A stretch of 48,257 nt of DNA from an uncultured Lachnospiraceae bacterium (GTDB taxonomy: Bacteria > Bacillota > Clostridia > Lachnospirales > Lachnospiraceae). Position 1 is the stretch's first letter; every line of letters starts with the position of its first letter. Made by a program: the position numbers and the translations under genes. Positions 4,745-48,090 of this stretch are shown here, piece after piece. The stretch covers positions 1 through 48,257 of the forward strand of contig CAMUZQ010000011.1 in the NCBI GenBank assembly GCA_947165275.1. The letters run 5' to 3'. The notes under the pieces were generated by a model. That model saw nothing but the letters and a program-made list of their open reading frames with translations. It was not told the origin of the DNA and did not search any database.

Positions 4745-4764
4745 CCACCGTCTAAAGACAGTGG
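4745..4764 (+). repeat. Right-end imperfect hairpin of the IscB element
   Basis: CCAC (4745-4748), C, GTC, loop TAAA (4753-4756), GAC, A, GTGG (4761-4764). It lies 11 bp after the iscB stop, the usual place of the right end in IS200/IS605 elements. The element end is probably within the next 10-15 bp. Confidence 0.75.
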
Positions 4765-4825
4765 ATTTCCGCCTATGGCAATAGAAAGAATCTATTTATG
4801 AAAAATTTACGGAGGTGGATGCTTT

Positions 4826-5200: not shown

Positions 5201-5319
5201 TCAAATATTATATCAACGATATATATGATCATAATAACCGGCATCGCAAAGACTCTGTCACGGAAGAGATGCAGGAACCGGAAGTTGATACCGAAGATAA
5301 AGATAATGATGAAGAATAA
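5197..5319 (+). CDS. Possible small acidic peptide downstream of yccF
   Basis: A 40-codon frame opens with GTG overlapping the yccF stop and ends in an Asp/Glu-rich tail just before a terminator. Codon use looks protein-like (EPEVDTEDKDNDEE), but it has no separate ribosome site and no recognised family. It could be a coupled small protein or a chance frame. Confidence 0.3.
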   Translation: MIKYYINDIYDHNNRHRKDSVTEEMQEPEVDTEDKDNDEE

Positions 5320-5324
5320 CCGAT

Positions 5325-5360
5325 AAGGCAGAGGCGAAATCCCCTGCCTTTGTGTTTTTT
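5325..5360 (+). terminator. Rho-independent terminator after yccF
   Basis: AAGGCAG (5325-5331) pairs with CTGCCTT (5344-5350), extended by GG/CC with one mismatch, followed by TGTGTTTTTT. Confidence 0.75.
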
Positions 5361-5362
5361 GC

Positions 5363-5656
5363 TTGACATTTCTTCTCATAAATGACCTTGGGGAAAAAAC
5401 AGATCGCATTGGTTGGGAGAGTTCCTGTTTGCAGGGAATGTGCGGGGCCTGTGCCATGGCTTTTTATGGTGCTGTATATGCCAATGACTGCTATCTGGTA
5501 AATGCCCGGAACAGGGAAAAGGCCCGGGATATCCGCAGTTCCTGCGCCGAGCATTTCGCAAACAGCTGCTCAAAGGCCCTTTCCTGTATGGATGTATGTC
5601 CCATGCACATTCCAACGTTGTCTTCCATGGCTAAGATGAACCGGGTTTTCAAGTAA
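5363..5656 (+). pseudogene. Remnant of succinate dehydrogenase/fumarate reductase iron-sulfur subunit
   Basis: The frame encodes WESSCLQGMCGACAM, the [2Fe-2S] loop of SdhB/FrdB proteins, and then almost at once the family's C-terminal segment (ANDCYLV, then SCMDVCPMHIPTLSSMAKMNR with its cysteines). A functional subunit has about 100 more residues between these, including another cysteine cluster, plus an N-terminal ferredoxin strand. Here the two parts are joined in frame. There is no good start codon (only TTG) and no ribosome site, and a terminator lies just upstream. I read this as a decayed gene with an internal in-frame deletion. A short functional ferredoxin-like protein is less likely. 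Confidence 0.72.
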
Positions 5657-7210: not shown

Positions 7211-8233
7211 ATGAAGGGGATGGACAGAAAAAAAGGAAGGATATTCTGTATTCGGTTAGCTTTTATAGTGATATTTGTGCTTATTATGTATTTTGCATCC
7301 AGGCTTTTGTGCCTGAAGACAAAAGATGGGAGCAGTCAGTGCCTCGGGATGTATGCGCAGCCCAGGGATACCGTAGATGTAGTCATGCTTGGAACAAGCC
7401 ATATGTATTGTGATGTAAATCCGGCCATTCTATGGGAGCAGGACGGAATAGCTTCGTATGTATTCGGTGCAGCAGAGCAGCCGCTTTGGGTCACATATTA
7501 TTATCTTATTGAGGTCTGTAAATACCAGAGCCCAAAGCTGGTGGTGCTGGATCTTTATGCCCCGGCAAAATTCAAGGATCACTTTACTGAAGAATACTTC
7601 GGGGAGAACATGTATAACATTCGCTTTTCACTTAATAAACTTCGTATGATCGCATCAAGCTGCACTCTCAGTCAGATCAATGAGTATTTTCCTTCTTTTT
7701 TCGGATTTCATTCCAGATACAGTGAGATAAATGATGAAGATATTGAATACCTGATCCCGTCAGAGAAAGATGCTGATTTTAAGGGATATAACCCCTTTTT
7801 TGAAAGATTAGAGGGTATGGAGCCAACCCTTGATGTAACTGATAAAGGTGACATTACCCCTAAATCTGAGATATATCTGAATAAGATCATAGATTATACG
7901 AAAAAGAACAATATAGAACTTTTTTTGGTTGTGAATCCTTATCCTACGACAGCACAGGAAGAATTGGTATACAACAGAATACATGAGATAGCGGATTCAA
8001 ATAAGGTGTTATTCAGGAGTACAAATTATAACAGTGAGGAAATGGGTCTTGTTTTCGATGAGGATTATAACGATGAGTCTCATTTGAACTACAGCGGAAG
8101 CTGTAAGTATTCGTCATTTCTCTCAGACCTGATAAAAGAGAATTATGATATCCCTGACAGACGTGGAGATCCGCGATATGAGTCATGGGACAGAAATGCT
8201 GAACAGATGAGTGAACTGTATGGAGAATATTAA
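7211..8233 (+). CDS. SGNH/DltD-like membrane-anchored acyl-transfer partner, copy 1
   Basis: A 340-residue protein with one N-terminal transmembrane helix (about 11-30) and an extracellular domain. It shows DVVMLGTSHMYCD (position of the SGNH nucleophile block, Ser of GTSH) and DESHLNYSGS near the C-terminus (Asp/His block). The tail DRRGDPRYESWD recurs in the protein at 36294-37223 (DHRGDERYSQWD), so the two are paralogues. Paired with the MBOAT 2 nt upstream, it would move or hydrolyse the acyl group on a surface polymer. ATG 7211 was chosen by position; the ribosome site is weak, which fits translational coupling. Confidence 0.8.
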   Translation: MKGMDRKKGRIFCIRLAFIVIFVLIMYFASRLLCLKTKDGSSQCLGMYAQPRDTVDVVMLGTSHMYCDVNPAILWEQDGIASYVFGAAEQPLWVTYYYLIEVCKYQSPKLVVLDLYAPAKFKDHFTEEYFGENMYNIRFSLNKLRMIASSCTLSQINEYFPSFFGFHSRYSEINDEDIEYLIPSEKDADFKGYNPFFERLEGMEPTLDVTDKGDITPKSEIYLNKIIDYTKKNNIELFLVVNPYPTTAQEELVYNRIHEIADSNKVLFRSTNYNSEEMGLVFDEDYNDESHLNYSGSCKYSSFLSDLIKENYDIPDRRGDPRYESWDRNAEQMSELYGEY

Positions 8234-8256
8234 ATACTATTTGTGCATCAGCAGAC

Positions 8257-8294
8257 CGGGCAGGGCAGAAGGTATTCCGCTCTGCCCGTTTTTT
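8257..8294 (+). terminator. Terminator after MBOAT/SGNH copy 1
   Basis: CGGGCAG (8257-8263) pairs with CTGCCCG (8282-8288), followed by TTTTTT. Confidence 0.85.
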
Positions 8295-8319
8295 CTGTCC
8301 GTATTTTTGAAAAAAGTTA

Positions 8320-8384
8320 TTGACAAATGGCTGTCATGCGTTTATATTATATTCATCATAATTCATACAAAACCTATAGGAATA
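8320..8384 (+). promoter_or_regulatory. cysK promoter and CCTATAGG operator-like site
   Basis: TTGACA (8320-8325), 17-bp spacer, TATATT (8343-8348). Downstream, at 8373-8384, is CCTATAGGAATA, whose first 8 bp are a perfect palindrome. The related CCGATAGGGAATA lies in the leader of the transporter lipoprotein (355-367). The pair could be one regulator's sites. Confidence 0.6.
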
Positions 8385-8410
8385 ACACAAAAATATGAGG
8401 AGGCGATATT

Positions 8411-9346
8411 ATGGCAGATATTAAAAACAGTGCATTGGATCTGATAGGTAAAACACCTGTTGTGAACATCAGCAGATATGCAAAGAAGGCAGGGGCCGAC
8501 AAGGCTACGATCCTTGCAAAGATCGAGTATTTCAATCCGGCAGGTTCTGTAAAGGACAGGATCGCTCTTGCAATGATAGAGGATGCGGAGAAGGCAGGGA
8601 AATTAAAGCCCGGGGCTACCATCATAGAGCCGACATCCGGAAATACGGGCATAGGCATAGCTTCGGTAGCAGCTGCCAAGGGATATAAGGCGATACTGAC
8701 GCTTCCCGATACTATGTCTGTGGAGCGCAGAAACCTGCTCAAGGCTTATGGCGCAGAGCTTGTGCTCACTGAGGGCGCCAAGGGAATGAAGGGAGCTATA
8801 GCAAAGGCTGAAGAGCTTAACAAGGAGATAGAGAACTCTGTTATACTCGGCCAGTTTGATAATGCGGCCAATCCTGCGATACATAAGGCTACTACAGGAC
8901 CTGAGATCTGGGAGCAGACCGATGGAAAAGTGGATTTCTTTGTAGCAGGTGTAGGTACAGGCGGAACACTTACCGGAGTAGGAGAGTACCTTAAAGAGAA
9001 AAATCCCGAGGTAAAGATCGTTGCAGTGGAGCCTGCATCTTCACCGGTGCTTTCCAGGGGAACAGCAGGACCTCACAAGATCCAGGGTATCGGAGCGGGC
9101 TTTGTACCATCGGTACTTAATACAAAGGTGTTTGACGAGGTAATAACGGTTGAGAATGATGATGCCTTTGAGCAGGGCAGGCAGTTTGCGGTTGCTGAGG
9201 GAATGCTTGTAGGTATTTCATCAGGAGCGGCACTCAAGGCGGCGGCTGATTTAGCAGGACGTCCCGAAAATGAGGGGAAGACAATAGTTGTACTGCTTCC
9301 GGATTCCGGTGACAGATATCTTTCGACGGCGCTTTTTTCAAAATAA
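8411..9346 (+). CDS. cysK: Cysteine synthase A (O-acetylserine sulfhydrylase)
   Basis: A 311-residue PLP enzyme that makes cysteine from O-acetylserine and sulfide. Family marks: [11 protein letters not shown] with the PLP lysine, PTSGNTGIG (substrate-binding loop), [15 protein letters not shown] (phosphate-binding loop), [11 protein letters not shown] and [10 protein letters not shown] at the C-terminus. Length is normal. GAGGAGG precedes the ATG. Single gene with its own promoter and a strong terminator. Confidence 0.97.
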
Positions 9347-33729: not shown

Positions 33730-36234
33730 ATGCCGGATAAGAAATATATAATCGATAATCTGGACAGGGCTATAGCAGAGGGATATATAGTTGCTTTTTA
33801 CCAGCCTGTCGCCCGGACACTTACCGGAGAGATATGCGGCATGGAAGCGCTGGCCAGGTGGATAGATCCCGAATACGGTGTGATCCCGCCTGACGGTTTC
33901 ATAGGAGTACTTGAAGAGGAAGGGCTTATCCATAAGCTGGACTGCCATATCATCCACAGGATATGTGAGGACTATGCCAAGACCATGACGGCAGACAACA
34001 GGACAGTGACCATCTCCTTTAACCTTTCAAGACTTGATTTCAAAGCCATGGACATGCATGCATTTATCGAACAGGAAATGAAGTCACATAAGGTGCCGGA
34101 GGCAGCCTTCAGAGTGGAGATAACGGAGAGCATGATGGATAATGATGATATTCATATGCATGAGGTTATCGATGGTTTCTGGGACAGGGGCTTAAGGGTC
34201 TGGATGGATGATTTCGGAAGCGGCTATTCCTCACTTAATGTGCTTAAGGATTACCGGTTTGACACCCTTAAGATAGATATGGTCTTTTTAAGGGATCTCA
34301 ATGCCCGTTCAAGAGAGATCGTAAAGTCCATAGTCAATATGTCCAAGAGGATAGGGGTTCACACGCTTGCAGAGGGAGTGGAGACAGAGGAACAGTTTTT
34401 ATTCCTGAAGAATATCGGATGTGAGAAGGCACAGGGATATTATATCGGGAAACCGCTGCCTTACAAGGATTGCATAGAGCATCTTCATGAAAGAGGCTAC
34501 AGGCTGGAATCACCCTCAAAACGCCAGTATTACCACGATATAGGGCGGGTAAACCTGCTGAGCGCCATGCCGCTCGAGACTATAGTAGCAGCAGACGCGG
34601 GGACTGCTGATGCTGAGGATCAGATACCGATAGCCTTTGTGGAGTATTCAGAGGGAGAGATAAAATATCTTTTTGCAAATGAAAGCTATATGAGGACTAT
34701 CAGGGAAATGGGAGAGGACTCCCTTGACTCGATAGAAGTGGAGTTCTCGAGAGGAGAATCTCCCTTAAAGGAAAAGTTTCTTTCCATGATACTCAGCGCG
34801 AAGGAAACCGGAGAGACAGTGGGTCTTGATTTCATCCGGGGACGCAAATACTGCTTTGCCCAGGTCAGAGCTGTTGCGGACTATCCCGGAGGAAATGCCT
34901 TCCTGTGCATCCTGCATAATCTGTCGGATGATGCCCTGCTTTCAAGAAGCTCACTGCTTTCGGAGCATATGAAGAGCCTTTGCTCCATATATGAGATGAT
35001 AACACTTGTGAATCTGAACACAGGCTATTCAGAGACCATATTCAGCAGTGTGCAGACCAGACATACATATAACGAGAAGCCTGCGACAGAGGAGCTCAGG
35101 GACTATGCCGAGAATGAGATCTATCCGGATGATCGTGAAAGATTCATAGAATTTACCGACCTTTCAACTATAGAGCAAAGGATCACGGAGAGTCCCACAA
35201 GGCATATTTCCGCGCCCTTCAGGACCAGGATCACAGGCGGGACATATGTATGGTCCCTGTATTCCCTCCTGTTTGACGGGGACAGAAGCGACAGAAGGAT
35301 ACTTACATGCTTCAGAAGACTCTCTCCCGAAGCGGTAGCAAGGCTTCATAATGATTCCTCGGTATTTGCGGATAAGGAGCAGGGGAAAAATGAAAAGATA
35401 ACCGCAGAGCTTCTCTGGGATAATTTCCGGAATAATTCCGACACAGGCTTTTTCTGGAAGGACAGGAACCGCCGTTTTGTCGGCGTGAATAAGAAATTCC
35501 TCGAATACTACGGCATAGGATCGGAGGAGGAGCTCATAGGCAGGACAGATGAGGATATGGGCTGGCATGTGGATCCGGAGCCGTATAAGTCTGATGAGGA
35601 AAAGGTACTGGCAGGAGAAGGACAGACCTACCTTGTGCCGGGGACCTGTATCTGCAGGGGTGAGATAAAGGATATCGTTGCCAGCAAGATCCCGCTGTAT
35701 AAGGACGGGCAGATCATCGGCCTTATGGGATATTTTATTGATGTTACGGATCAGAAGAGCAGGAACCTGGAGATAAAGCAGCTGATACAGAACGACCCTT
35801 TCACGGGAGCCTTGAACTTTCTGGGCCTTATGGAATCCCTGCTTAAATATCAGGACGGTTATGCGATGGCCGGATCAGACTTTACAATGATCTTTTTCAA
35901 TATCAGTCATTTTCATCTTTTCAGTGAAAACTACGGTAATGAATGGGTGATGCATCTGCTTAAGGCAGTGGCATCCGCGCTTCAGAAGGTAACCGGAGTG
36001 AAGGGTATAGCCGGCAGACTTTATACAGATCATTTCATGATCGTAAAACAGATCGGCAGCGAAGACGAGGTAAAGGAGACTTTAGCCGGGGTTGAAAGAC
36101 AGGTTGGAACCATCAGGGAGATAGACGGTGTGCCATGCTCCATTTTCCTTAATTCATCCTATACCCTCTTTTCGCAGATGAAGGATCTGCAGGTGATGTA
36201 TGAAAAAACCGAGAAAGGGCTCAAACGGGACTGA
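33730..36234 (+). CDS. EAL c-di-GMP phosphodiesterase with PAS domains and degenerate GGDEF
   Basis: 834 residues, cytoplasmic. The EAL domain is at the N-terminus (about 5-255) and has a full catalytic set: GMEALARW, FNLSR, VEITES, MDDFGSGYSS, LKID, LAEGVET, and AQGYYIGKP. PAS-like regions follow (about 300-400, 430-540, and 565-685, the last with GFFWKDRNRRFVGVNKKFLEYYG). The C-terminal 145 residues resemble GGDEF, but the signature position reads RLYTDHF, so no cyclase activity is expected. EAL first and GGDEF last is the reverse of the usual order. Likely role: degradation of c-di-GMP under PAS control. GGGAGG precedes the ATG. Confidence 0.93.
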   Translation: MPDKKYIIDNLDRAIAEGYIVAFYQPVARTLTGEICGMEALARWIDPEYGVIPPDGFIGVLEEEGLIHKLDCHIIHRICEDYAKTMTADNRTVTISFNLSRLDFKAMDMHAFIEQEMKSHKVPEAAFRVEITESMMDNDDIHMHEVIDGFWDRGLRVWMDDFGSGYSSLNVLKDYRFDTLKIDMVFLRDLNARSREIVKSIVNMSKRIGVHTLAEGVETEEQFLFLKNIGCEKAQGYYIGKPLPYKDCIEHLHERGYRLESPSKRQYYHDIGRVNLLSAMPLETIVAADAGTADAEDQIPIAFVEYSEGEIKYLFANESYMRTIREMGEDSLDSIEVEFSRGESPLKEKFLSMILSAKETGETVGLDFIRGRKYCFAQVRAVADYPGGNAFLCILHNLSDDALLSRSSLLSEHMKSLCSIYEMITLVNLNTGYSETIFSSVQTRHTYNEKPATEELRDYAENEIYPDDRERFIEFTDLSTIEQRITESPTRHISAPFRTRITGGTYVWSLYSLLFDGDRSDRRILTCFRRLSPEAVARLHNDSSVFADKEQGKNEKITAELLWDNFRNNSDTGFFWKDRNRRFVGVNKKFLEYYGIGSEEELIGRTDEDMGWHVDPEPYKSDEEKVLAGEGQTYLVPGTCICRGEIKDIVASKIPLYKDGQIIGLMGYFIDVTDQKSRNLEIKQLIQNDPFTGALNFLGLMESLLKYQDGYAMAGSDFTMIFFNISHFHLFSENYGNEWVMHLLKAVASALQKVTGVKGIAGRLYTDHFMIVKQIGSEDEVKETLAGVERQVGTIREIDGVPCSIFLNSSYTLFSQMKDLQVMYEKTEKGLKRD

Positions 36235-36293: not shown

Positions 36294-37223
36294 ATGAAAA
36301 AGATCATCATTTTTTTAGCAGGCTTCGTCGTATTGCTCGTACTCGCATCGGCTGCAGTAAAGCCGGCTGCAGGCGAGGTATATGACATAATAAATACAGA
36401 CAGAAAGCTTTCTGAGGTCGCAGCAGAAAGCGATGATACCATAGATGTGATGTTTGCCGGAAACAGTCTGCTGTTTCACGGCGTTTCTCCTCTGCAGATA
36501 TGGTCTGAGACCGGGATCACCTCATATGATCTCAGCGAAGGCGCAATGCGTCTTTGCGATCAGAGTGCCCTTATCATGAGCACTTATGATAAGCAGACCC
36601 CTGAGCTTCTGGTCATAGAGCCCACTCTGATCTTCGATAATGCGTCACCCTATAAGGATGATTATGCGATCCCCACTAATTTCATCGAAAAGATATTTCC
36701 GATCTTTCATTATCATACCTTTTATAAAGCGATAAAGCTGTCGGGAGAGGATGAGAGCAAACGCTCCCTTTTCAAGGGCTTTGAAGGCTCCTATGACGTG
36801 GATCCTTATAAAAAGGATCCTGATTATATGCAGAAGGAAGCGGATCCGGCCACTATTCCTGAGATTAACAGGAAATACCTCAGAGAGATCGTTGATTTCT
36901 GCAGGGAAAAGAATATCGGCATCTTGCTGATCGCCATGCCCAGCCCCAAAAACTATAATATGGGGATCCATAATGCACTACAGGAATGGGCGGATGCCAA
37001 CGGGATACCCTTTGTAGACACCAACCTTATGACGGATGAGATCGGCATAAACTGGGAAACGGACACAAAGGACAGGGGAGATCATCTGAATTTTGAAGGC
37101 TCGAGGAAGGTCACCGGATTTATAGCTGATTACCTGAAGGAGAATTATGATCTTACGGATCACAGAGGTGATGAGCGTTACAGTCAGTGGGATGCTGACC
37201 TTGCGGAGGCGGGAGTATACTGA
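36294..37223 (+). CDS. SGNH/DltD-like membrane-anchored protein, copy 2
   Basis: 309 residues. N-terminal membrane anchor (about 3-22), then an extracellular SGNH-type domain: DVMFAGNSLLFHG (nucleophile-block position, Ser in GNS), LLVIEPTL, LLIAMPSPKNYN, and DHLNFEGS (Asp/His block). The tail DHRGDERYSQWD repeats that of the copy-1 protein (7211-8233). In dlt systems the matching protein, DltD, works outside the membrane in the last transfer to teichoic acid. Its TGA overlaps the MBOAT ATG by 1 nt (TGATG), so the two are made together. Confidence 0.82.
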   Translation: MKKIIIFLAGFVVLLVLASAAVKPAAGEVYDIINTDRKLSEVAAESDDTIDVMFAGNSLLFHGVSPLQIWSETGITSYDLSEGAMRLCDQSALIMSTYDKQTPELLVIEPTLIFDNASPYKDDYAIPTNFIEKIFPIFHYHTFYKAIKLSGEDESKRSLFKGFEGSYDVDPYKKDPDYMQKEADPATIPEINRKYLREIVDFCREKNIGILLIAMPSPKNYNMGIHNALQEWADANGIPFVDTNLMTDEIGINWETDTKDRGDHLNFEGSRKVTGFIADYLKENYDLTDHRGDERYSQWDADLAEAGVY

Positions 37224-38815
37224 TGGATAAGGCATATATCATCGAAAACCTGATCAAATGGTGGGGAGATCTTTCATATACGGTATGGATGTATTTTGCC
37301 CTTTTTCTTCCGCTTACCGCCCTTGTGTATCATTTTGTCCGCAGGGACAGGAGGAAATATGTGCTGCTCATCTTCAGCTGGATTTTTTTCTTCAGCCTGA
37401 GCAGGTTTCTGCTTTTTGCAAATATTGCCTCCTCGGTGTTTGTATGGGCGCTTGGACTTAAGCTTGAGGCGATAAACTCCGATAAGAGCATCAAGCGCAA
37501 GGAAAGGAAAAAAAGGAAGAAGAGGGTTCTTATAGCGGGGATAATCTCGCTTCTTGCAGTGCTGATCATTTTCAAGTATCTTGATTTCATCGGTCTGAAC
37601 ATAGTAAGGGTGACCTGGCGGATGGGAATACCCTTTGACTGGAAGATGCTTAAGCTTGCGGCCCCTGTGGGCATATCCTATTATACTCTGGAATCCATAG
37701 CCTATCTGTCCGATGTGTACTGGGAAAAGGCAGAAGCGGAGAAGAGTCTGCCGAATGTATTGCTTTTCATGTCCTTCTTCCCGAAGCTGATAGAAGGCCC
37801 GATCACAAGGTATAATGAATTCAGGGGGATATTTGAAGGCGTGGATATACATCCCGACAGTCTTGCTACCGGCTATCAGCGCATACTCTGGGGGCTTTTC
37901 AAGAAGCTTGTGATAGCAGATCAGATAGCGCCTGCGGTGAATGCGCTCTACGAGGGCGAGTATATGGACGGCGGAGTGGCCCTTTGCGCAGCGGTATTTT
38001 TTACCATACAGGAGTATATGGATTTTTCGGGAGCCATAGATATAGCTGTGGGAAGCGCGAGGATATTCAATCTCAGGCTTCCCGAGAACTTCAGACAGCC
38101 GTTTTTTGCAAAGAACGCATCGGACTTCTGGCGCAGATGGCATATCACACTCGGTGCCTTTTTCAGGGATTATATTTTCTATCCCATATCCCTTTCCAAG
38201 GGCGCGGCCAGGATATCGGGCAATGTAAGAAAGGTGCTGGGGAATTCTGTGGCAAGATTTACGACGCCGGCGATCGCTCTGTTTTTTGTATGGCTGTCAA
38301 ACGGACTCTGGCATGGTCCAAGATGGACCTATGTATTTTACGGGATGTATTATTTTGTATTGATACTGATCGAAAACATACTGGAGGAGCCCTTTGTAAA
38401 GCTTCTGGAGAAGCTTCATCTTACGGAGGCATCCGTACCGGTCAGGGTATTCAGATTCATAAAACTTTTCTTTATCGTGATCATAGGCGAGATGTTTTTC
38501 CGTGCTGAGACCTTCACAAAGGGCTTTGAGATGTTCAAGTGCATATTTACGGATCTCCGCTTCGATGTGATGCTGAATAATCTTGAGAATATAAGCATAG
38601 ACAGGTACGGCTACTTCGCTATAGCTGTCGGACTGATCGTTGTGATCACGGTGGAGATACTTAAGGAGGCCGGCTTCCCCCTGAGGGAAAGGCTCGAAGC
38701 CCTTCCGGTTCCCGTGAGGTTCGGATTCTGGTATGCATGCATTTTTACTGTCATAATACTCGGAGCCTACGGAACAGGATATGATGCTGCGGATCTGATC
38801 TACGCGCAGTTCTAG
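37223..38815 (+). CDS. MBOAT acyltransferase (DltB-like position), copy 2
   Basis: 530 residues, about eleven helices, with a basic cytoplasmic loop (KRKERKKRKKR, about 92-102). MBOAT marks: PVGISYYTLESIAYL, FPKLIEGPI, EYMDFSGAIDIAVG, FWRRWHITLGAFFRDYIFYP, and NGLWHGPRW with the presumed catalytic His. It would take an aminoacyl or acyl group from the carrier protein at 40361 on the inner face and pass it outward, as DltB does with DltC. Clearly divergent from copy 1 (5760-7208). Confidence 0.9.
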   Translation: MDKAYIIENLIKWWGDLSYTVWMYFALFLPLTALVYHFVRRDRRKYVLLIFSWIFFFSLSRFLLFANIASSVFVWALGLKLEAINSDKSIKRKERKKRKKRVLIAGIISLLAVLIIFKYLDFIGLNIVRVTWRMGIPFDWKMLKLAAPVGISYYTLESIAYLSDVYWEKAEAEKSLPNVLLFMSFFPKLIEGPITRYNEFRGIFEGVDIHPDSLATGYQRILWGLFKKLVIADQIAPAVNALYEGEYMDGGVALCAAVFFTIQEYMDFSGAIDIAVGSARIFNLRLPENFRQPFFAKNASDFWRRWHITLGAFFRDYIFYPISLSKGAARISGNVRKVLGNSVARFTTPAIALFFVWLSNGLWHGPRWTYVFYGMYYFVLILIENILEEPFVKLLEKLHLTEASVPVRVFRFIKLFFIVIIGEMFFRAETFTKGFEMFKCIFTDLRFDVMLNNLENISIDRYGYFAIAVGLIVVITVEILKEAGFPLRERLEALPVPVRFGFWYACIFTVIILGAYGTGYDAADLIYAQF

Positions 38816-38859
38816 TACATGATGCTTCGCAGGCGATGAGGATGGGAAGGTAAGAGGAT

Positions 38860-40350
38860 ATGGAAAAAAATGTTCTTGAATGGCTTGAGAGGGCCGCAGA
38901 TAAATACCCTGACAGGGTCGTATATGAGGATACTGAAGAAAGCATCACCTTCAGGGAGCTTTTGCTCGAGGCTGAAAGGATAGGCTCGGCGCTTGCTGTA
39001 AGGGGGCTTTCGGAAAGGCCTGTGGCTGTGATGATGGGAAGGGGAGTCCATACGATAGCGGCTTATCTGGGGATAGTTTATTCCGGGCATGCCTATGCTC
39101 CCATAGACAGGACGCAGCCTTCCACGAGGATAGAAAAGATACTTAAGCTTTTAAATCCGGAGGCGGTATTATGCGATGAGGCTCCGGAAATATCTGTCGA
39201 TGGGGCAGAGATCCTGCTTTATGATGAAATAAAGGAGCATGAGATACTTCAGGAGGAGCTTGAGAGGATAAGGCATGAGGCAACTGATATTTCGCCTCTT
39301 TATATCATATTCACTTCCGGCTCGAGCGGGAGACCGAAGGGGGTTATTACCGCCCACCATGCACTTATGAATTATATCCGGGCCTATGCCGGGATGATGG
39401 AGATCGACAGCAGTGACATACTCTGCTCCCAGTCTCCACTGGATTATATAGCGGCGATAAGGGACATATATGTCCCGCTCCTTAAGGGCTGCCGTACCTT
39501 TTTGAGTCCGAAGGAGTATTTCATGCAGCCCGGTGTCTTATTCGGCATGATGAATGAGAAGAGGATAACCTGTATCGGCTGGAGCACCTCCGCTCTGAGC
39601 GTCCTGTCGAGGCTTGGGGCGTTTCGGGAGGGTAAGCCTGAATATCTGAAAAAGGTTTGTTTTTCAGGCTCCGTAATGCCCGGGAGGGTTTTGCGGGAAT
39701 GGCAGGAGGCTCTTCCGGAAGCTCTTTTTGTAAACCAGTACGGACCTACCGAGGTGACGGCTTCATGTACCTACTACAGGATAGATCACAGGGTGGAGGA
39801 TACGGAGAGCATACCGGCAGGCGTGCCTTATGATAACTATAAGGTCTTCCTGCTGTCCGATGACGGGGGAAGGGTATCCCCGGGGGATACAGGTGAGATA
39901 TGCGTTGCAGGTTCAGGGCTTGCCCTGGGATATTATAATGACGAAGAGCGCACGAAGGCGGCCTTCGTTCAAAATCCACTGAATAAAGTGTATAATGAGA
40001 TGATATACCGTACCGGCGACATGGGAAGCTTCAGGCAGGACGGCATGCTGGAGTTTCATGGCAGGCGCGACAGGCAGATCAAGCATATGGGCCACAGGGT
40101 CGAGCTTGATGAGATAGAATGCGCTGCGATGGCCGCAGAAGGCGTGGCAGAGGCGGCGGCGGTATACGATCCCGTGAATGAGACGATCCGTCTTTTTTAT
40201 TCAGGGGAGGCTGTACTGAAGGATGTTGTAGTTGAGATGAGAAGAAGTCTGCCGGGCTTTATGGTCCCGAGGAAGGTCAAAAAGCTGGATATGCTCCCGA
40301 GGCTTGCAAACGGCAAGACTGATCTTGAGAAACTTAAAGGATTGACATAG
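38860..40350 (+). CDS. AMP-forming (amino)acyl:carrier-protein ligase, DltA-like
   Basis: 496 residues, close to DltA length. ANL motifs: FTSGSSGRPKGV (A3), NQYGPTEVTASCT (A5), YRTGDMG (A7), GRRDRQIKHMGHRVELDEIE (A8), and NGKTD with the A10 Lys. There is no fused condensation or carrier domain. It would adenylate a carboxylate and load it on the carrier protein encoded 10 nt downstream. At the place where DltA has FCGE (its Cys favours D-Ala), this protein has FSGS, so a substrate other than D-Ala is possible; that alignment is by eye. AAGAGGAT precedes the ATG. Confidence 0.88.
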   Translation: MEKNVLEWLERAADKYPDRVVYEDTEESITFRELLLEAERIGSALAVRGLSERPVAVMMGRGVHTIAAYLGIVYSGHAYAPIDRTQPSTRIEKILKLLNPEAVLCDEAPEISVDGAEILLYDEIKEHEILQEELERIRHEATDISPLYIIFTSGSSGRPKGVITAHHALMNYIRAYAGMMEIDSSDILCSQSPLDYIAAIRDIYVPLLKGCRTFLSPKEYFMQPGVLFGMMNEKRITCIGWSTSALSVLSRLGAFREGKPEYLKKVCFSGSVMPGRVLREWQEALPEALFVNQYGPTEVTASCTYYRIDHRVEDTESIPAGVPYDNYKVFLLSDDGGRVSPGDTGEICVAGSGLALGYYNDEERTKAAFVQNPLNKVYNEMIYRTGDMGSFRQDGMLEFHGRRDRQIKHMGHRVELDEIECAAMAAEGVAEAAAVYDPVNETIRLFYSGEAVLKDVVVEMRRSLPGFMVPRKVKKLDMLPRLANGKTDLEKLKGLT

Positions 40351-40360
40351 GAGGATCATC

Positions 40361-40600
40361 ATGCGTGAAAAAGTAATGGAGATACTGACCGATCTCAGAC
40401 CTGATGTGGAGTTTGAAACCGAAAAGGCTCTCGTGAGCGATAATGTGCTTGAGTCATTTGATATCATCGAGCTTATATCCAGGCTTAATAATGAATTTGA
40501 TATAGAGATCAGCCCGAAGGAGCTTACTGCCGTTAATTTTGATTCGGCGGATGCCATAACAGGACTTGTCGAGAGGCTTGTGGCAGAAGAGGAGGAGTGA
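40361..40600 (+). CDS. Acyl/aminoacyl carrier protein (DltC-like)
   Basis: 79 residues, acidic, four-helix carrier-protein size. VLESFDIIELI places the phosphopantetheine-accepting Ser at residue 32, followed by FDIEI and an acidic third helix. Expected to be converted to the holo form by a phosphopantetheinyl transferase encoded elsewhere and loaded by the ligase upstream. AGGAGG precedes the ATG. Its stop overlaps the decarboxylase start (TGATG), the tightest link in the cluster. Confidence 0.93.
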   Translation: MREKVMEILTDLRPDVEFETEKALVSDNVLESFDIIELISRLNNEFDIEISPKELTAVNFDSADAITGLVERLVAEEEE

Positions 40601-41727
40601 TGACTCCTTCATATATTTTTGATCTGGATCTTTTCCGGAAAAGGATCAGGGACATATCGGAGGCTTTGCCCGGGATACCGCTTGTTTATTCGATAAAGGC
40701 AAATCCCTTTCTGCTTCCCTATCTGCCGGAGGATATATCCCGTATCGAGGTATGCAGTCCGGGAGAGCTTGCCATCTGCAAGGAGCTTCACATACCCCCG
40801 GAGAAGATAATATATTCCGGGCTTGTAAAGGAGAAGGCAGATACAGAGGAGGCTCTGTCATACGGAGCAGGTCTCATCACAGCCGAAAGTCTCAGGCATT
40901 ACAGGCTCATAAAGGAAGCGTCACTGAAGCATGACCACAGGATCAGGCTGCTGCTCCGTCTGACGAGCGGAAATCAGTTCGGGATGACAGGGGAAGACAT
41001 CCAAAGGATCATAAAGGACGCTGAGGAATGTGACCGGATAAACATATGCGGGATCCATTATTATTCAGGGACAGCAAAGAAGCTTAAGCAGGTAGAGGCA
41101 GATATGGATCATATGATCACTGAGCTCAACAGGCTCAGGGAGGATTGCGGCTTTGAATGCGGCATGCTTGAATACGGTCCCGGACTTAATGCGGAGTATT
41201 TTGCGGGATCTGACAGCGCCTGCGAGGAAAAGGACATGGAGCTTCTTGATCTGGTGTCGCCGGTCTTACGGGATTTTGCCGGAAGATACAGACTCAGCCT
41301 TGAATTTGGAAGGTTTATGGCGTCTCCCTGCGGGACCTACGAGACCATGGTCGTGGACATGAAGTCAAATAGCGGGACAGACTATGTGATCATTGACGGA
41401 GGGACGCATCAGATCAGATATTACGGCCCCAATGCGGCCATGAAGACGCCTCCGGTGGAGCAGAATGGCAGCGGAGAGAAGAGAGAGTATATGATCTGCG
41501 GAAGCCTTTGCACCACTGCAGATGTCCTTGTAAGGAATATCGCTCTTCATGAGGTCAGGACGGGCGATATCCTGAGATTTAAGAGAACAGGAGCCTATTC
41601 CGTAACTGAGGGCCCCATGCTTTTTCTCTCAAGAAGGATGCCGGAGATATATGTCAGGTCGGAAAGAGAAGGACTCAGGCTTATAAGATCTGCGAAGGAA
41701 GCATACAGGATCAACCTGGGCGACTGA
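40600..41727 (+). CDS. PLP-dependent decarboxylase of the LysA/BtrK fold
   Basis: 375 residues, alanine-racemase-type barrel plus beta domain. PLP Lys33 in YSIKANP; GIHYYSGT (His153) in place of the LysA HxHxGS; LEYGPGLN in the glycine-rich phosphate loop; LEFGRFM for EPGR; Cys304 in GSLCTTADVL at the site of the LysA CESxD; GAY before the C-terminus. The CTTAD version argues against ordinary diaminopimelate decarboxylase. With a ligase and carrier protein beside it, the closest precedent is BtrK, which decarboxylates glutamyl-S-BtrI in butirosin synthesis; exosortase-linked loci also combine AMP-ligase, carrier protein and such a decarboxylase. ATG 40600 is preferred to GTG 40597. Confidence 0.88.
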   Translation: MTPSYIFDLDLFRKRIRDISEALPGIPLVYSIKANPFLLPYLPEDISRIEVCSPGELAICKELHIPPEKIIYSGLVKEKADTEEALSYGAGLITAESLRHYRLIKEASLKHDHRIRLLLRLTSGNQFGMTGEDIQRIIKDAEECDRINICGIHYYSGTAKKLKQVEADMDHMITELNRLREDCGFECGMLEYGPGLNAEYFAGSDSACEEKDMELLDLVSPVLRDFAGRYRLSLEFGRFMASPCGTYETMVVDMKSNSGTDYVIIDGGTHQIRYYGPNAAMKTPPVEQNGSGEKREYMICGSLCTTADVLVRNIALHEVRTGDILRFKRTGAYSVTEGPMLFLSRRMPEIYVRSEREGLRLIRSAKEAYRINLGD

Positions 41728-41743: not shown

Positions 41744-42931
41744 ATGGATGATATTATGGGAATAACTGCATATATTATCCTGGGACTGTTTTTTTTCGGA
41801 CTTCCGGTGGGCTTTACTCTTTACGAGACTGCAGCGCTTATAATAAGTGCCAGAGCAGGGACAGCGGAAGCAGGGAAGCTGAAAGTGACAAACTGTGTTA
41901 TCGATACGATAGTCGTGTTTGTCGCTTTTGTTTTTGAGGTCACATATATCTCATTATTCAAGTCTGCGGATTTTTCCGGCGACTGGCAGACACAGCTCTA
42001 TAATGAAGAAATGCATAATCCTTTATATCCGGAGAGCATCCCTACTCTTGTTCTTATACTTATACTGGCCGTTGCAGGCTATTATACCCTGAATATCATC
42101 AGGATAAACGATACGCCGCCTCTGATACCTGTGCTTTCAATGTCTGCAATGTATGCCGGCGTGATCGTGATAGTGGTTTTTACGATCCATATATTTGACT
42201 TTTCAGACTTTCTTACTACAGATCATTATCTTTGGGCAGCTCCCTTAAATCTGATCCTGATGACGGCAAGGGTCATCATATCAGCTGTCAGGGAGTTTGA
42301 GGTACCGCCTGAGAGGATGAGCAGGATAGAGGACTCAGGGATACTTAAGGAGGCTGACAGGCTGTTATCAAATGCAAGACACTGGCCTGTATTTGCCCTG
42401 ATACTGATGTTTCCGCTTCTCGGGATCCTGGTCTGTATCCTCATGCTTTTCGGACAGGCGCCGGATTCTCTGATAAAAGCCTTTACCGAGACGGCAGATT
42501 ATAATTTTTCACAGATGATACCTCCGCAGAATCTGTACTATGATGAGCATTATCTCTGCACAGTGGCGGCAGGCGGCGACAGAGGTATCGTAAAGCCTCT
42601 CCGGATGGGAGTAAGGCACGGACACAGGGTCATAGTAAACAGGCAGCTTTGTGTAGCCAATGCCTTCGAGCAGATACTTGAGGAGAGGACTCCCAAAATG
42701 CACAGGATCATAAGAGGGATATATGACAGATATGGATTTCCTCTTGCGGGACATATAAAGAGCAGCTTCGCGGCGGATCTGGTATATATCCTTATGAAGC
42801 CGTCAGAATGGCTCTTCCTTTTCGTTATATATCTGACTGACGTGCATCCCGAGGACAGGATAGCGATGCAGTATACCGGAAAAAGCCTTGAGGAGCTCAG
42901 ACGGGAAGAGACCGGTGCATATCATGGATAA
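41744..42931 (+). CDS. DUF6688 family membrane protein
   Basis: 395 residues. Six or so helices (five in the first 180 residues, one at about 213-235). The C-terminal part has the family's conserved block: YLCTVAAGGDRGIVKPLRMG, HGHRVIVNRQLCVANAFEQI, and LTDVHPEDRIAMQY. Function unknown. It starts 16 nt after the decarboxylase with no clear ribosome site and overlaps the next gene by 8 nt, so it belongs to the same unit. Confidence 0.82.
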   Translation: MDDIMGITAYIILGLFFFGLPVGFTLYETAALIISARAGTAEAGKLKVTNCVIDTIVVFVAFVFEVTYISLFKSADFSGDWQTQLYNEEMHNPLYPESIPTLVLILILAVAGYYTLNIIRINDTPPLIPVLSMSAMYAGVIVIVVFTIHIFDFSDFLTTDHYLWAAPLNLILMTARVIISAVREFEVPPERMSRIEDSGILKEADRLLSNARHWPVFALILMFPLLGILVCILMLFGQAPDSLIKAFTETADYNFSQMIPPQNLYYDEHYLCTVAAGGDRGIVKPLRMGVRHGHRVIVNRQLCVANAFEQILEERTPKMHRIIRGIYDRYGFPLAGHIKSSFAADLVYILMKPSEWLFLFVIYLTDVHPEDRIAMQYTGKSLEELRREETGAYHG

Positions 42932-44213: not shown

Positions 44214-45143
44214 ATGGAAGAAGATGTAAATACCAGTTATCTGTACAGTTCAACACAGGAATACCTCGGGAGGCCGGAAAAGCACAGGGTTCAGCCAAGG
44301 CTTTTTGTATGCTTTGAGCATGAGGTCATGGAGTTTCCCTTAGCCGGTCATCAGACTATGGGGCGGCCTGTGGATGATCATATTCCGGATATACCGGTGA
44401 CAAATAAATATGTATCCCGAAATCACGGATATTTTGATACCACGGATGATAAGGTCACATACACGGCTGAGGATGCCTTGAACGGGACTATATTCAGACG
44501 GAAGATGCTGACTCCGGGTGAGACTGTAGAGCTTTGGGACGGAGATGAGCTGATAATACCCGTGGCTGACAAGGGTGACGGAGCCGATGTCATGCTTGTA
44601 TGCGCCATCATAGAAAACAGGATCAATATATGGCGGGATCTTGAGCTTGCTGCAAGGGATGCGCTTACCGGGCTTTCCGGCAGAAATACCTTCAGGACCT
44701 GGTATCTCAGGAATCACAGCTTCAGGAAGGATGAGAAGCTTTCTCTTTTCATCCTTGATATCGATAATTTCAAGAGGATAAATGACGTATACGGACATTC
44801 TGCAGGAGACAGCGCTTTGAAGCTTCTTGCGGAGGAGCTCCGCCTTGCCGTGGGAACCGGAGGCTTTGTCTGCAGATGGGGCGGAGATGAATTCGTGGGA
44901 CTCATGGAAAGGGAAGATTCAGAGGCAAAGGAAGCACTGGAGGATCTGGGACGAAGGATAAATTCAGTCAAGATAGATGATGTCTTCCGGATCACAGTGA
45001 GCGCAGGGGTTGCAGGGATCAGATCAAAGGAGGAGGCGCCGGATATAGACGGACTTGTGATACTGGCGGATCAGGCATTATACAGAGCGAAGGAATACGG
45101 AAAGAACCGTATATGCGTGTACGGAAAATATGAAAGCAAATGA
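44214..45143 (+). CDS. FHA-GGDEF diguanylate cyclase
   Basis: 309 residues, cytoplasmic. FHA domain (about 28-125): MGRPVDD, VSRNHGYF, ALNGT, the phosphothreonine-binding residues. GGDEF domain (about 142-305): DALTGLSGRNTF, FILDIDNFKRINDVYGHSAGD, and RWGGDEF intact; the RxxD inhibitory site upstream is absent. Expected to make c-di-GMP when the FHA domain binds a phosphorylated partner. The next gene starts 14 nt before this stop, so the cyclase is translationally coupled to the permease-kinase. No clear ribosome site. Confidence 0.93.
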   Translation: MEEDVNTSYLYSSTQEYLGRPEKHRVQPRLFVCFEHEVMEFPLAGHQTMGRPVDDHIPDIPVTNKYVSRNHGYFDTTDDKVTYTAEDALNGTIFRRKMLTPGETVELWDGDELIIPVADKGDGADVMLVCAIIENRINIWRDLELAARDALTGLSGRNTFRTWYLRNHSFRKDEKLSLFILDIDNFKRINDVYGHSAGDSALKLLAEELRLAVGTGGFVCRWGGDEFVGLMEREDSEAKEALEDLGRRINSVKIDDVFRITVSAGVAGIRSKEEAPDIDGLVILADQALYRAKEYGKNRICVYGKYESK

Positions 45144-48090
45144 TCCGTCTGCCGTGAAAAATCCGGAGAGAGCGGATGATATAAACGATCAGGGTCTGGA
45201 GCGCTATCTTTCTCCTCTGGCCGTATGGGGACTTTCCTTTGGCTGTGCAGTAGGATGGGGCTCCTTTGTGATGCCCGGAACGACCTTCCTTCCGGCGGCC
45301 GGACCTTTCGGTACTCTCATAGGAATGCTGCTCGGGGCAGCGGTCATGTGGGTCATCGGGGTGAATTACCATTATCTGATGAATAAATATCCCGATGCGG
45401 GAGGAACCCTTACATATACCATCAAAGCCTTCGGCTATGATCACGGTTTTTTGAGCGCCTGGTTTCTGATCCTTGTTTATGTGGCGATAATATGGGCCAA
45501 TGCCACGGCGCTGGCACTCATATGCAGGAGTCTTTTCGGAGACCTGTTTCAGTTCGGATTTCATTATCAGGTTCTGGGATATGATGTGTATATGGGCGAG
45601 GTCATCCTTACCCTGGCGGCTATACTTACAGGCGGCCTGATCTGTATTTACGGCAAGCGGCTGGCGGTTAATCTGCAGGTAATATTTGCCCTCATCCTCT
45701 TTTTCGGGATAGTGGTCTGCGCAGTCGGAGTCTTCGGGCCGGGACGTGTCGATCCCGGGAGTCTGTCGCCCGCCTTTGCTCCGAATGACAACAGATTTAT
45801 AAGCCAGGTCATTACGATCGTTGCTTTGTCTCCCTGGGCCTTCGTAGGCTTCGAATCAGTATCCAATTCGACTGAGGGATTTGATTTCCCGGTAAAAAAG
45901 ACCATATGGATCTTATCTGCGGCTCTGCTCACGGGGACGGTTTCCTATGTACTCCTTACCCTGCTGGCAGCATCTGTACAGCCTGAGGGATATACGGGAT
46001 GGACAGAACACATAAAGGATCTGGCCAATATAAGGGGGCGGGGAGGACTGCCGACCTTTTATACCGTGGATACCGTGATGGGAAAGACGGGGACTGTCAT
46101 ACTTGGAGCTGCTGCGGCATCTGCCATACTTACAGGGCTTATAGGCAATTATATCGCAGCCAGCAGGCTTCTTTATTCCATGGCAGAGAAGGATATCCTT
46201 CCCGGATGGTTCAGGAAGGTCAATAAGGGCAGGAGCCCCATTAATGCGCTCCTTTTTCTTATGGGTATATCCCTTTTTATTCCGTTTCTCGGACGTACTG
46301 CCATAGGCTGGATCATCGATGTAAACACAGTCGGTGCCACGATAGCATATGGATATGCTTCAGCAGATGCACTCTATCTTGCAGGAAAAGACGGGAATAA
46401 AAAGATACAGCTTTCCGGCATCGTGGGACTTGCTATATCCATATTCTTTTTCTTTTATTTCATGTCCTTTTCAGCCGGAGCGATGTCGACCGAATCGTAT
46501 CTCATACTCGCTTTCTGGAGCATCCTGGGCTTTGTTTATTTCAGATATGTTTTCAGCAGGGATGATGACAGACGGTTCGGAAAGTCAACCGTTGTATGGA
46601 TAGGTCTCCTTTTCCTGATTTTTTTCACTTCACTTATGTGGGTGAAGCAGGCCACTGACGAGATGACAAAAAGGGTGGTGGAAAATATAAGCACCTATTA
46701 TGAAGAGAGATATTCCTATGTAGAACAGCATACTGTCGATCAGACGGAGCTGTATCTTTCCCAGCAGATGAATATAGCAAACAGGACGCTGACCACAAAC
46801 AGTATCATACAGATGGTCCTCATAGTGGCAAGCCTCGGGATATTATTCAGTGTTTATTCCACCATAGCCAGAAGGGAGAGGCAGAGCGAGATAGAAATGA
46901 TAGCGGCGCAGGAGAGCAATACAGCCAAGACCGTATTCCTTTCAAATATGTCTCATGATATAAGGACTCCGATGAATGCCATAATCGGATATGTAAATCT
47001 CGCCGAGAGGGAGGATATAACCCTTGAGGAGACTAAGGATTATCTGGCCAAGATAAAGGGATCAAGCCAGCATCTGCTTGCCCTGATAAATGATGTGCTG
47101 GAGATGAGCCGTATAGAGAGCGGGAAGATGGAGCTTGAGCCGATCGCTGTGGATATCAGAAAGACGATAGGAGAGGTGAGGGATCTCTTCGCCACCCAGA
47201 TGGACGAGAAGGGTATAGATTTTATGGTGGACACTTCCGGGGTAAGGCACAGCCGGGTCTACTGTGACAAGAACCGCCTGAACAGGGTATTGCTGAACCT
47301 TGTGGGCAATGCCTATAAATTCACTCCGGAGGGAGGCAGGATAGAGGTTGTCGTATCCGAGACTGACAGCGGGACAGAGGATCAGGGACATTACGAGATA
47401 AGGGTTTCTGACAGCGGCATAGGCATGTCGGAGGAATTTGCGAAAAAGGTCTTTGATGCATTTGAAAGAGAAAAAACCTCAACCGTGAGCGGCATCCAGG
47501 GAACAGGGCTTGGGATGTCGATAGCAAAGAGCATAATCGATATGATGGGCGGCGAGATCACAGTCAGGACCGCACAGGGCAAGGGGACGGAATTCACTAT
47601 AAAGCTGGACCTCAGGCTTCAGGAGGAAGCTGACAGAGTCCTTACGGAAAAGGCATATGAAGATAAGACAGAGGATACAGAGGATACAGCCGGCCTGACG
47701 GAGGCTTTTAAGGGCATGAGGCTGCTTCTTGCAGAGGATATCGAGATAAACCGGGAGATAGCGGGCATGCTGCTTGCAAGTCTCGGCTTCACCGTGGATT
47801 TTGCGGAAAACGGACAGGAAGCTGTCGACAGGATAGCGGCTTCGGTTCCGGGTTATTATAAGGGTGTATTGATGGATATACAGATGCCTGTGATGGACGG
47901 ATATGAGGCCAGCAGAGCCATAAGGGCACTGAGCGATAAGGAGCTGGCAGGTATACCCATAATAGCGATGACGGCTAATGCTTTTTCCGAGGATGTAAAG
48001 AATGCTATGGACGCCGGAATGAACGCTCATGTTGCAAAACCCATAGATATGAAGGTACTTAAGGGAGTTTTGCAGGAGGTTCTCTTATGA
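45130..48090 (+). CDS. Amino-acid permease fused to histidine kinase and receiver
   Basis: 986 residues. Residues about 25-510 are an APC-superfamily transporter with 12-13 helices (WGLSFGCAVGWGSFVMPGTT at helix 1 and PWAFVGFESVSN later). A hydrophilic segment (505-558) and another helix (about 559-578) follow. Then HisKA with His609 in SHDIRTPMNAIIGY, HATPase with Asn727, DSGIGMS and GTGLGMSI, and a receiver (about 862-986) with Asp916 in LMDIQMPVMDGYEA and Lys in VAKPID. It is a hybrid sensor kinase whose input domain is a transporter, comparable to CbrA (which uses an SSS-type transporter). It may sense or import an amino acid used by the dlt-like pathway upstream. No output domain, so a phosphotransfer partner is needed. 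Confidence 0.93.
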   Translation: MKANDPSAVKNPERADDINDQGLERYLSPLAVWGLSFGCAVGWGSFVMPGTTFLPAAGPFGTLIGMLLGAAVMWVIGVNYHYLMNKYPDAGGTLTYTIKAFGYDHGFLSAWFLILVYVAIIWANATALALICRSLFGDLFQFGFHYQVLGYDVYMGEVILTLAAILTGGLICIYGKRLAVNLQVIFALILFFGIVVCAVGVFGPGRVDPGSLSPAFAPNDNRFISQVITIVALSPWAFVGFESVSNSTEGFDFPVKKTIWILSAALLTGTVSYVLLTLLAASVQPEGYTGWTEHIKDLANIRGRGGLPTFYTVDTVMGKTGTVILGAAAASAILTGLIGNYIAASRLLYSMAEKDILPGWFRKVNKGRSPINALLFLMGISLFIPFLGRTAIGWIIDVNTVGATIAYGYASADALYLAGKDGNKKIQLSGIVGLAISIFFFFYFMSFSAGAMSTESYLILAFWSILGFVYFRYVFSRDDDRRFGKSTVVWIGLLFLIFFTSLMWVKQATDEMTKRVVENISTYYEERYSYVEQHTVDQTELYLSQQMNIANRTLTTNSIIQMVLIVASLGILFSVYSTIARRERQSEIEMIAAQESNTAKTVFLSNMSHDIRTPMNAIIGYVNLAEREDITLEETKDYLAKIKGSSQHLLALINDVLEMSRIESGKMELEPIAVDIRKTIGEVRDLFATQMDEKGIDFMVDTSGVRHSRVYCDKNRLNRVLLNLVGNAYKFTPEGGRIEVVVSETDSGTEDQGHYEIRVSDSGIGMSEEFAKKVFDAFEREKTSTVSGIQGTGLGMSIAKSIIDMMGGEITVRTAQGKGTEFTIKLDLRLQEEADRVLTEKAYEDKTEDTEDTAGLTEAFKGMRLLLAEDIEINREIAGMLLASLGFTVDFAENGQEAVDRIAASVPGYYKGVLMDIQMPVMDGYEASRAIRALSDKELAGIPIIAMTANAFSEDVKNAMDAGMNAHVAKPIDMKVLKGVLQEVLL

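Follow-up and report, generated by a model that had tools for sequence, protein, structure and literature searches.

The window analyzed here, a 48,257-nucleotide (nt) stretch of DNA from an uncultured Lachnospiraceae bacterium (GenBank assembly GCA_947165275.1, contig CAMUZQ010000011.1), contains a block of five genes at 36294..41727, all on the + strand. According to the open reading frames of the window, these genes encode an SGNH protein, an MBOAT, a ligase, a carrier protein and a pyridoxal phosphate (PLP) decarboxylase with the LysA fold. A first-pass annotation had suggested that the block is a Dlt-like surface-modification operon, in which an amino acid is activated, decarboxylated on the carrier and passed to a teichoic acid, lipid or glycan. 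The analysis described below supports that overall reading and, like the annotation, we infer the amino acid, its side-chain activation, the order of the steps and the acceptor.

The first gene (36294..37223, +) encodes a 309-amino-acid (aa) protein with an N-terminal helix and a predicted DltD/PatB-like role as an SGNH acyltransferase, which contains Ser58 (36465-36467) and His264 (37083-37085) and falls below the Pfam cut-off for GDSL (23.5 versus 32.9 bits). Its TGATG junction shares 1 nt with the gene for a 530-aa MBOAT membrane acyltransferase (37223..38815, +), which passes the Pfam MBOAT cut-off with 57.8 bits, contains His364 (38312-38314) and ends in LIYAQF with Tyr527 (38801-38803). 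After a gap of 44 nt comes the gene for a 496-aa stand-alone adenylation-domain (A-domain) ligase (38860..40350, +), which passes the AMP-binding cut-off with 217.7 bits and whose pocket residues were assigned by motif mapping, and 10 nt farther on is the gene for a 79-aa carrier protein (40361..40600, +). The carrier scores below the Pfam cut-off for PP-binding (20.4 versus 20.8 bits) but nevertheless keeps the serine of the motif LESFD, S32 (40454-40456), which is the presumed site of the phosphopantetheine. The last gene encodes a PLP decarboxylase of the LysA/BtrK fold, which extends from GTG 40597 (376 aa) or ATG 40600 to 41727 (+), contains K34, C305, T306, D309 and Y334, and passes the cut-offs for both Orn_Arg_deC_N (56.8 bits) and Orn_DAP_Arg_deC (48.7 bits). 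Its junction with the carrier gene is again TGATG, with an overlap of 1 nt from the ATG start and of 4 nt from the GTG start. Open reading frames, Pfam matches and catalytic residues confirm the families and positions of the five packed genes in the first-pass annotation, and its description of 1-nt overlaps at two junctions with short gaps elsewhere is accurate when the decarboxylase starts at ATG 40600.

The five genes are found together in related bacteria

With the decarboxylase as query, we searched 200 family genomes and obtained matches in 44 at E <= 1e-15 and in 42, the window's own genome included, at 1.5e-38 or better. Loci were obtained from 40 of the 41 other genomes at the latter level (G066 was left out), and a second set consisted of the best 80 of at least 575 relatives that an alignment-based profile search returned from GTDB contigs; a single-sequence scan of GTDB contigs gave 29 pattern stretches with no relative among them. 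At each locus, we sought same-strand matches to the five family profiles at distances of up to 8 kb, and we refer to loci flanked by 5.5 kb or more on each side as roomy. All five families were present together at 21 of 29 roomy loci in the family sample and at 38 of 46 roomy loci among the best 80 GTDB-contig loci. When the two samples were joined and L120 and L192, which are at least 99% identical to another locus, were removed, 73 distinct roomy loci were counted, further pairs of 95-99% identity being kept; 57 of these contained all five genes, and 70 contained ligase, carrier and decarboxylase. The annotation had named a lack of co-occurrence in relatives as a result that would refute its reading, and the genes do co-occur widely. 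Gene order varies, with LIG-DEC-ACP-MBOAT-SGNH the commonest in the family sample and LIG-ACP-DEC-MBOAT-SGNH the commonest among the best 80 GTDB-contig loci, where LIG, ACP and DEC denote ligase, carrier and decarboxylase. The window's order, SGNH-MBOAT-LIG-ACP-DEC, is shared by 1 of 40 family loci and 10 of the 80 GTDB-contig loci. Judged by their joint occurrence, we conclude that the five genes form a real, co-inherited unit.

Relatives that encode the decarboxylase include Pseudobutyrivibrio, Agathobacter ruminis, Butyrivibrio, Ruminococcus albus and Mogibacterium, as well as metagenome-assembled genomes labeled Eggerthellaceae and Coriobacteriaceae. Within a phylum-wide sample, the family profile matched 4 of 398 genomes at E <= 1e-90, own genome included, which suggests that the system is uncommon outside the family at that threshold. 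Clustering of the flanking genes at 121 decarboxylase loci revealed no dominant neighbor; the largest clusters, both named by eye, comprised an ABC-type ATPase (14 loci) and a response regulator (13 loci).

The decarboxylase resembles BtrK and is distinct from LysA

Among NCBIfam models, the window decarboxylase matched TIGR03099 best (143.7 bits, cut-off 478.45) and also matched the LysA model TIGR01048 (141.9 bits, cut-off 297.9). The same genome encodes a second PF02784 protein (G000:C38) of LysA type, which scores 278.7 bits with TIGR01048, just under the cut-off. A relative of that protein was detected in 33 of the 34 decarboxylase-carrying genomes tested, out of 42 carriers, with G126 as the miss. 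We also compared the residue that follows the active-site Cys in a joint alignment, which covered 118 of the 121 decarboxylase loci and 30 loci from the LysA presence test. This residue is Thr or Ser in 117 of the 118 decarboxylase rows, Arg in the remaining one and Thr (T306) in the window enzyme, whereas it is Glu in all 30 LysA relatives. Among solved structures it is Thr in BtrK and 6knh and Glu in the Aquifex LysA (2p3e). The presence of a separate LysA-type gene, together with Thr or Ser in place of Glu, indicates that the window enzyme is not LysA.

BtrK is the best solved match of both the window decarboxylase and the family profile (216.6 bits with the profile), and the next matches of the profile are 6knh (186.7 bits), which is deposited as a probable diaminopimelate decarboxylase and is presumably a siderophore decarboxylase, and 2p3e (176.4 bits). 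BtrK is deposited as L-glutamyl-[BtrI acyl-carrier protein] decarboxylase and shares with the window enzyme the Thr after the active-site Cys. The BtrI/BtrK parallel that had been drawn in the annotation is thus right at the level of sequence, and we conclude that the window decarboxylase is BtrK-like; this likeness is a resemblance and no proof that the substrate is the same. BtrI is loaded by another class of enzyme, and the butirosin product goes to an aminoglycoside. The window proteins also match the exosortase-A-associated ligase and decarboxylase models, TIGR03098 (186.7 bits with the ligase, cut-off 592.35) and TIGR03099, which are linked to polysaccharide loci, but both matches lie far below the cut-offs.

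The decarboxylase could instead be a housekeeping enzyme that sits by accident in a dlt-like operon and serves as LysA or supplies pantothenate synthesis with beta-alanine. Its scores with the LysA and TIGR03099 models are nearly equal and both far below cut-off, and no PanD was found in the genome, which is 96% complete. However, the separate LysA-type gene, here and in nearly all carriers tested, rules out that the enzyme is the cell's only diaminopimelate decarboxylase, a possibility that the annotation had named as fatal to its reading. PanC was not found in the genome either, which suggests that there is probably no pantothenate synthesis to feed, and ligase and carrier accompany the decarboxylase at all but three of the distinct roomy loci. 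We give a housekeeping role almost no credence. A search of the genome for glutamate decarboxylase (PF00282) matched only a 62-position piece at a contig end, which leaves room for a separate source of gamma-aminobutyric acid (GABA).

Another alternative is that the PLP enzyme has switched reaction and, for example, racemizes a carrier-bound amino acid, to which the match of Ala_racemase_N to its N-terminal barrel (33.4 bits, Pfam) could point. This alternative seems very unlikely given that the C-terminal decarboxylase domain is matched, that 117 of 118 decarboxylase rows retain the active-site Cys as well as the Asp at the fourth position after it, and that a racemase homologue associated with a sister class of ligases, described below, belongs to another family. 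At one locus (L051:7712-11056, -, in G065), a 1114-aa open frame begins with the decarboxylase and also contains a long linker of low complexity, a hydrophobic stretch and one more region.

The transfer half combines features of Dlt and Pat

Like the window block, the Dlt system (DltA, DltC, DltB, DltX and DltD) combines an A-domain ligase, a carrier, an MBOAT and an SGNH protein for carrier-fed acyl transfer across the membrane. The window proteins miss all of the NCBIfam cut-offs for Dlt, with 271.4 bits versus 476 for DltA, 30.5 versus 68 for DltC and 136 versus 375 for DltB. Filing of the block as a dlt operon was considered and rejected; all 18 matches to the DltA model in the same genome are below the cut-off. 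Further differences are that the D-alanine system lacks a decarboxylation step and that Cys269 of DltA (position 301), to which excerpts of PMC11253843 assign a role in the D-Ala pocket, is replaced by Ser269 in the window ligase.

The acyl shuttle, which in Dlt is the microprotein DltX, may be a further difference. According to excerpts of PMC12148441, in both DltX and the MBOAT PatA the acyl group is borne by the Tyr of an FXYXXF motif at the C terminus, from which it is passed to the SGNH partner. The LIYAQF tail of the window MBOAT matches this motif with Leu replacing the first Phe, and among the family MBOATs with complete 3' ends (130 of 138 matches), Y..F is the ending of 123, and in the remaining 7 a Tyr occurs within the last six residues. 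These data suggest that the shuttle tyrosine is built into the MBOAT. PatA/PatB, which O-acetylates peptidoglycan, likewise has a C-terminal shuttle motif on the MBOAT and an SGNH partner but, unlike the window system, is described in the same excerpts as using acetyl-CoA as donor without a ligase or carrier. There, transfer from a carrier is linked to Dlt and its DltX, and a motif on the MBOAT itself to systems fed by acyl-CoA (PMC12148441). The transfer half of the window system appears to be a Dlt/Pat hybrid, carrier-fed and with a shuttle tyrosine inside the MBOAT.

The remaining residues of the transfer half are also conserved: His364 of the MBOAT, within WHG, in at least 85% of 31 MBOATs, and Ser58 and His264 of the SGNH protein in all of 20 SGNH sequences. 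A structural model of the SGNH protein (predicted local distance difference test, pLDDT, 91.3) matched generic SGNH proteins first, with PatB and DltD also present among the matches, which indicates that the fold alone does not choose between those two.

The ligase pocket tracks the decarboxylase

The window ligase passes the NCBIfam model AA-adenyl-dom (321.9 bits, cut-off 317.4). Its structural model (pLDDT 90.0) resembles A domains in general, with DltA scoring no more than about 2 Z units below the top match and VinN absent from the matches listed in the VIA-align comparison, so structure did not fix the substrate. Its pocket residues are D195, I197, R201, S269, Q293, A301 and S302, which correspond to positions 233, 235, 239, 301, 322, 330 and 331 of GrsA by motif alignment and not by model coordinates; positions 233, 239, 278, 299 and 322 belong to the A-domain code.

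Usable ligase rows were obtained from all but 10 of the 121 decarboxylase loci and were compared, in 152 rows, with those of 41 family loci without decarboxylase, namely 40 picked from among the matches plus L119. The pocket class IAR, to which the window ligase belongs, accounted for 58 of 111 ligases at decarboxylase loci and the class DVK/DIK for 52, the lone exception being that of L051/G065 with the code DAKSAVLGVK. Although these two classes differ at position 235, the signature of D233, K/R239 and S301 was present in 110 of the 111 ligases at decarboxylase loci versus 11 of the 41 ligases without decarboxylase; those 11 belong to the DVK class, and the remainder have other codes. Ligase classes also cluster on a tree of the decarboxylases, with 5 and 7 label changes versus 39.6 and 42.0 after shuffling. 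As far as these residue codes reveal, we conclude that the type of ligase pocket tracks the decarboxylase. Perhaps one of the two pocket types is for Glu and the other for Asp.

Published A-domain codes for Glu and aminoadipate have a basic residue at position 239. A sister class of ligases with the code DAK[SP]AGLGM, which has Lys239, lies directly beside a homologue of Asp/Glu-type racemases in 9 of 13 loci, and 2 further loci have such a homologue within six genes (11 of 13 in total); no racemase homologue was found within the other 149 of 162 loci. The racemase homologue beside this class suggests that, within this ligase family, acidic substrates are associated with a basic residue at 239. 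Dlt-like operons with a racemase homologue were seen at L208, L211, L219, L220, L227, L228, L230, L232, L235, L237 and L238, and these perhaps decorate with D-Asp, D-Glu or cysteate.

A putative pathway of carrier-bound decarboxylation and surface transfer

A PLP decarboxylase requires a free alpha-carboxylate, which means that an acidic amino acid could undergo this reaction on a carrier only when the thioester is formed by its side-chain carboxylate. The simplest reading is that the amino acid is loaded through the side chain, with Asp and Glu both candidates. The ligase would adenylate the side-chain carboxylate and transfer the amino acid to the phosphopantetheine arm of the carrier, from which the decarboxylase would remove the free alpha-carboxylate to leave a beta-alanyl thioester if Asp had been loaded or a 4-aminobutyryl thioester if Glu had been. 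The MBOAT would then carry the acyl group across the membrane to the tyrosine in its LIYAQF tail, and Ser58 of the SGNH protein would take up the group and place it in ester linkage on an extracellular glycan or polymer, which would gain a primary amine on a short arm. We assign a probability of about 0.6 to the reading that the five genes constitute one such pathway, with decarboxylation on the carrier and then transfer to a surface glycan or polymer.

Precedent exists in the modules VinN/VinL/VinO, BolO/BolC/BolN and AfcQ/AfcK/AfcP, which likewise consist of an A-domain ligase, a free carrier and a PLP decarboxylase, and excerpts of the sources report conversion in vitro of carrier-bound Asp to beta-alanine by AfcQ/AfcK/AfcP and use of 3-methylaspartate by VinN/VinL/VinO (PMC11284099, PMC7756342, PMC12186527). 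As in these modules, the trio is encoded together in the 70 distinct roomy loci counted above; the modules differ in that they supply the biosynthesis of antibiotics or lipopeptides by Actinomycetes and Burkholderia, whereas the window trio adjoins MBOAT and SGNH genes. These modules are a nearer precedent than the BtrI/BtrK pair cited in the first-pass annotation. Taken together, the window system would act like Dlt but draw on a supply module of the VinN/VinL/VinO or Afc type and shuttle the acyl group on a PatA-like tail, and by the cut-offs tested it is a member of neither Dlt nor LysA. We found no description of such a system in the open-access literature; subscription papers and preprints were outside the scope of that search, and a description elsewhere is possible.

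Decarboxylation might instead come first, such that free GABA, beta-alanine or, from diaminopimelate, lysine is made, then loaded by the ligase and attached by MBOAT and SGNH. LysA and its kin act on free amino acids, and Ile at position 235 of the window ligase could reflect a substrate with no amine beside the reacting carboxylate. DVK ligases at loci that lack the decarboxylase would also be easily explained if the ligase bound the product and other cells obtained it otherwise. However, the best solved relative, BtrK, is deposited as acting on a carrier-bound amino acid, and the Glu of LysA is missing in all 118 family members, which argues against diaminopimelate as substrate. Furthermore, the conserved basic residue at 239 would find no carboxylate in GABA or beta-alanine, and the published excerpts report no activation of beta-alanine by AfcQ, an analogous ligase. 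We regard decarboxylation before loading as unlikely, and decarboxylation on the carrier remains the preferred reading.

Several findings weigh against carrier-bound decarboxylation of an acidic amino acid followed by MBOAT/SGNH transfer. The MBOAT was undetected in 10 of 40 family loci and 14 of the best 80 GTDB-contig loci, and the SGNH protein in 10 of 40 and 19 of 80, with contig ends explaining some of these absences. The 11 DVK-class loci mentioned above lack the decarboxylase, and in 7 of the 11 genomes the search of the 200 family genomes gave no decarboxylase match, which suggests that the DVK class can work without it. One example comes from the window's own genome, which encodes a second set (L119, G000:C7:1-14000) of MBOAT, SGNH, carrier and DVK ligase without a decarboxylase. 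In addition, of the VinN residues Asp230, Ser299 and Arg331, only the Ser is kept by the window ligase, which has Ile197 at position 235, where an amine-binding Asp is usual, then Ser269, and Ser302 in place of Arg331; it also shows no gap at the loop from which VinN lacks one residue. These features indicate that the window ligase does not bind its substrate in the manner of VinN. Finally, the L208 racemase, which was the only gene of its kind scored, passes both an amino acid racemase model and a cysteate racemase model, so that the acid of the DAK[SP]AGLGM class may be cysteate as well as Asp or Glu.

The trio may supply different acyltransferases in sister operons

At six decarboxylase loci without a detected MBOAT (L137, L163, L190, L193, L196 and L198), the ligase gene is preceded by that of a hexapeptide acyltransferase or its homologue, which was checked with Pfam at L137, L190 and L198. 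The best NCBIfam match of the two scored is of the LpxD kind (116.1 and 163.2 bits versus a cut-off of 207). L190, L193 and L196 also encode a homologue of DegT-type sugar aminotransferases, and L190 an EpsG protein. LpxD uses acyl-carrier donors, and the presence of an LpxD-like acyltransferase beside the trio suggests that ligase, carrier and decarboxylase are a self-contained maker of acyl-carrier donors. It looks like different acyltransferases can use this donor, with glycans as the common destination. Membrane proteins were also noted between decarboxylase and carrier in L163 (GtrII family) and L193, and L137 encodes a YfhO protein.

The variety of these loci bears on the acceptor. MBOATs act on lipids too, and the six loci with a hexapeptide acyltransferase, three of them with a sugar aminotransferase homologue, indicate that acceptors vary; the pathway could thus run as proposed and yet acylate a lipid or a secreted small molecule, in place of a wall or exopolysaccharide polymer. 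We find such an acceptor rather improbable, since all five genes are kept together in most of the distinct roomy loci and a shuttle-tailed MBOAT with an SGNH partner is the arrangement that excerpts of PMC12148441 associate with acylation of envelope polymers.

Sister operons without the decarboxylase differ in their tailoring genes. A gene of the formyltransferase family (PF00551) adjoins the carrier gene in three DVK loci, L203, L205 and L206; that of L203 runs off the contig, and the L206 genome has a decarboxylase locus elsewhere. This arrangement suggests N-formylation in place of decarboxylation. A formyltransferase would fit a carrier that bears a free amine, though a sugar amine could also be its target. 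In the second set of the window's own genome, MBOAT, SGNH and carrier genes (2614-5567) and the DVK-class ligase gene (7696-9321) lie among polysaccharide-type genes, and the window decarboxylase might serve this set in trans. The congener G079 has a similar second set (L201).

A broader reading, on which we would place even odds, is that gut Clostridia encode mix-and-match aminoacyl-decoration operons, in which a DltA-like ligase and carrier are joined by a variable tailoring enzyme and a variable acyltransferase that acts onto a glycan. The tailoring enzyme would be the decarboxylase here and the product of a racemase-family or formyltransferase-family gene in sister operons, the acyltransferase would be MBOAT/SGNH or an LpxD-like enzyme, and the amino acid loaded would be acidic or other. 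The decarboxylase branch would yield cell surfaces that carry GABA or beta-alanine as esters or amides.

Potential significance of decarboxylation in surface decoration

If the proposal is correct, D-alanine is not the sole amino acid that a carrier-fed MBOAT/SGNH machine places on Gram-positive gut bacterial surfaces, and a chemistry known to date from the assembly of antibiotics and lipopeptides, in which the beta- or gamma-amino acid is made on a carrier, also serves the envelope or exopolysaccharide. The hosts of such chemistry would be Butyrivibrio, Pseudobutyrivibrio, Agathobacter, Ruminococcus and related anaerobes. The positive charge would sit on a longer arm than D-Ala gives, and we speculate that surface esters of GABA or beta-alanine could influence interactions with antimicrobial peptides and phages as well as sensing by the host. 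Predictions of the substrate that follow from the ligase pocket classes and the swapped tailoring genes lend themselves to tests on purified proteins.

Genes that surround the operon

Directly upstream of the operon, across a 60-nt gap, lies a gene for an EAL/PAS/GGDEF protein (33730-36234; Pfam), and 16 nt downstream of the decarboxylase gene, on the same strand, is a gene for a DUF6688 protein with N and C domains (41744-42931). Other signaling genes nearby, both read by eye, encode a GGDEF-like protein (44214-45143) and a protein with transporter, histidine kinase and receiver regions (45130-48090). Homologues of the window EAL protein were found near the block in two other genomes (L049 and L059), which raises the possibility of a link to cyclic di-GMP. 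The source genome (2.9 Mb) contains nine MBOAT matches, two of them on the window's contig (near 6207 and 37745), which is consistent with a rich repertoire of envelope acylation.

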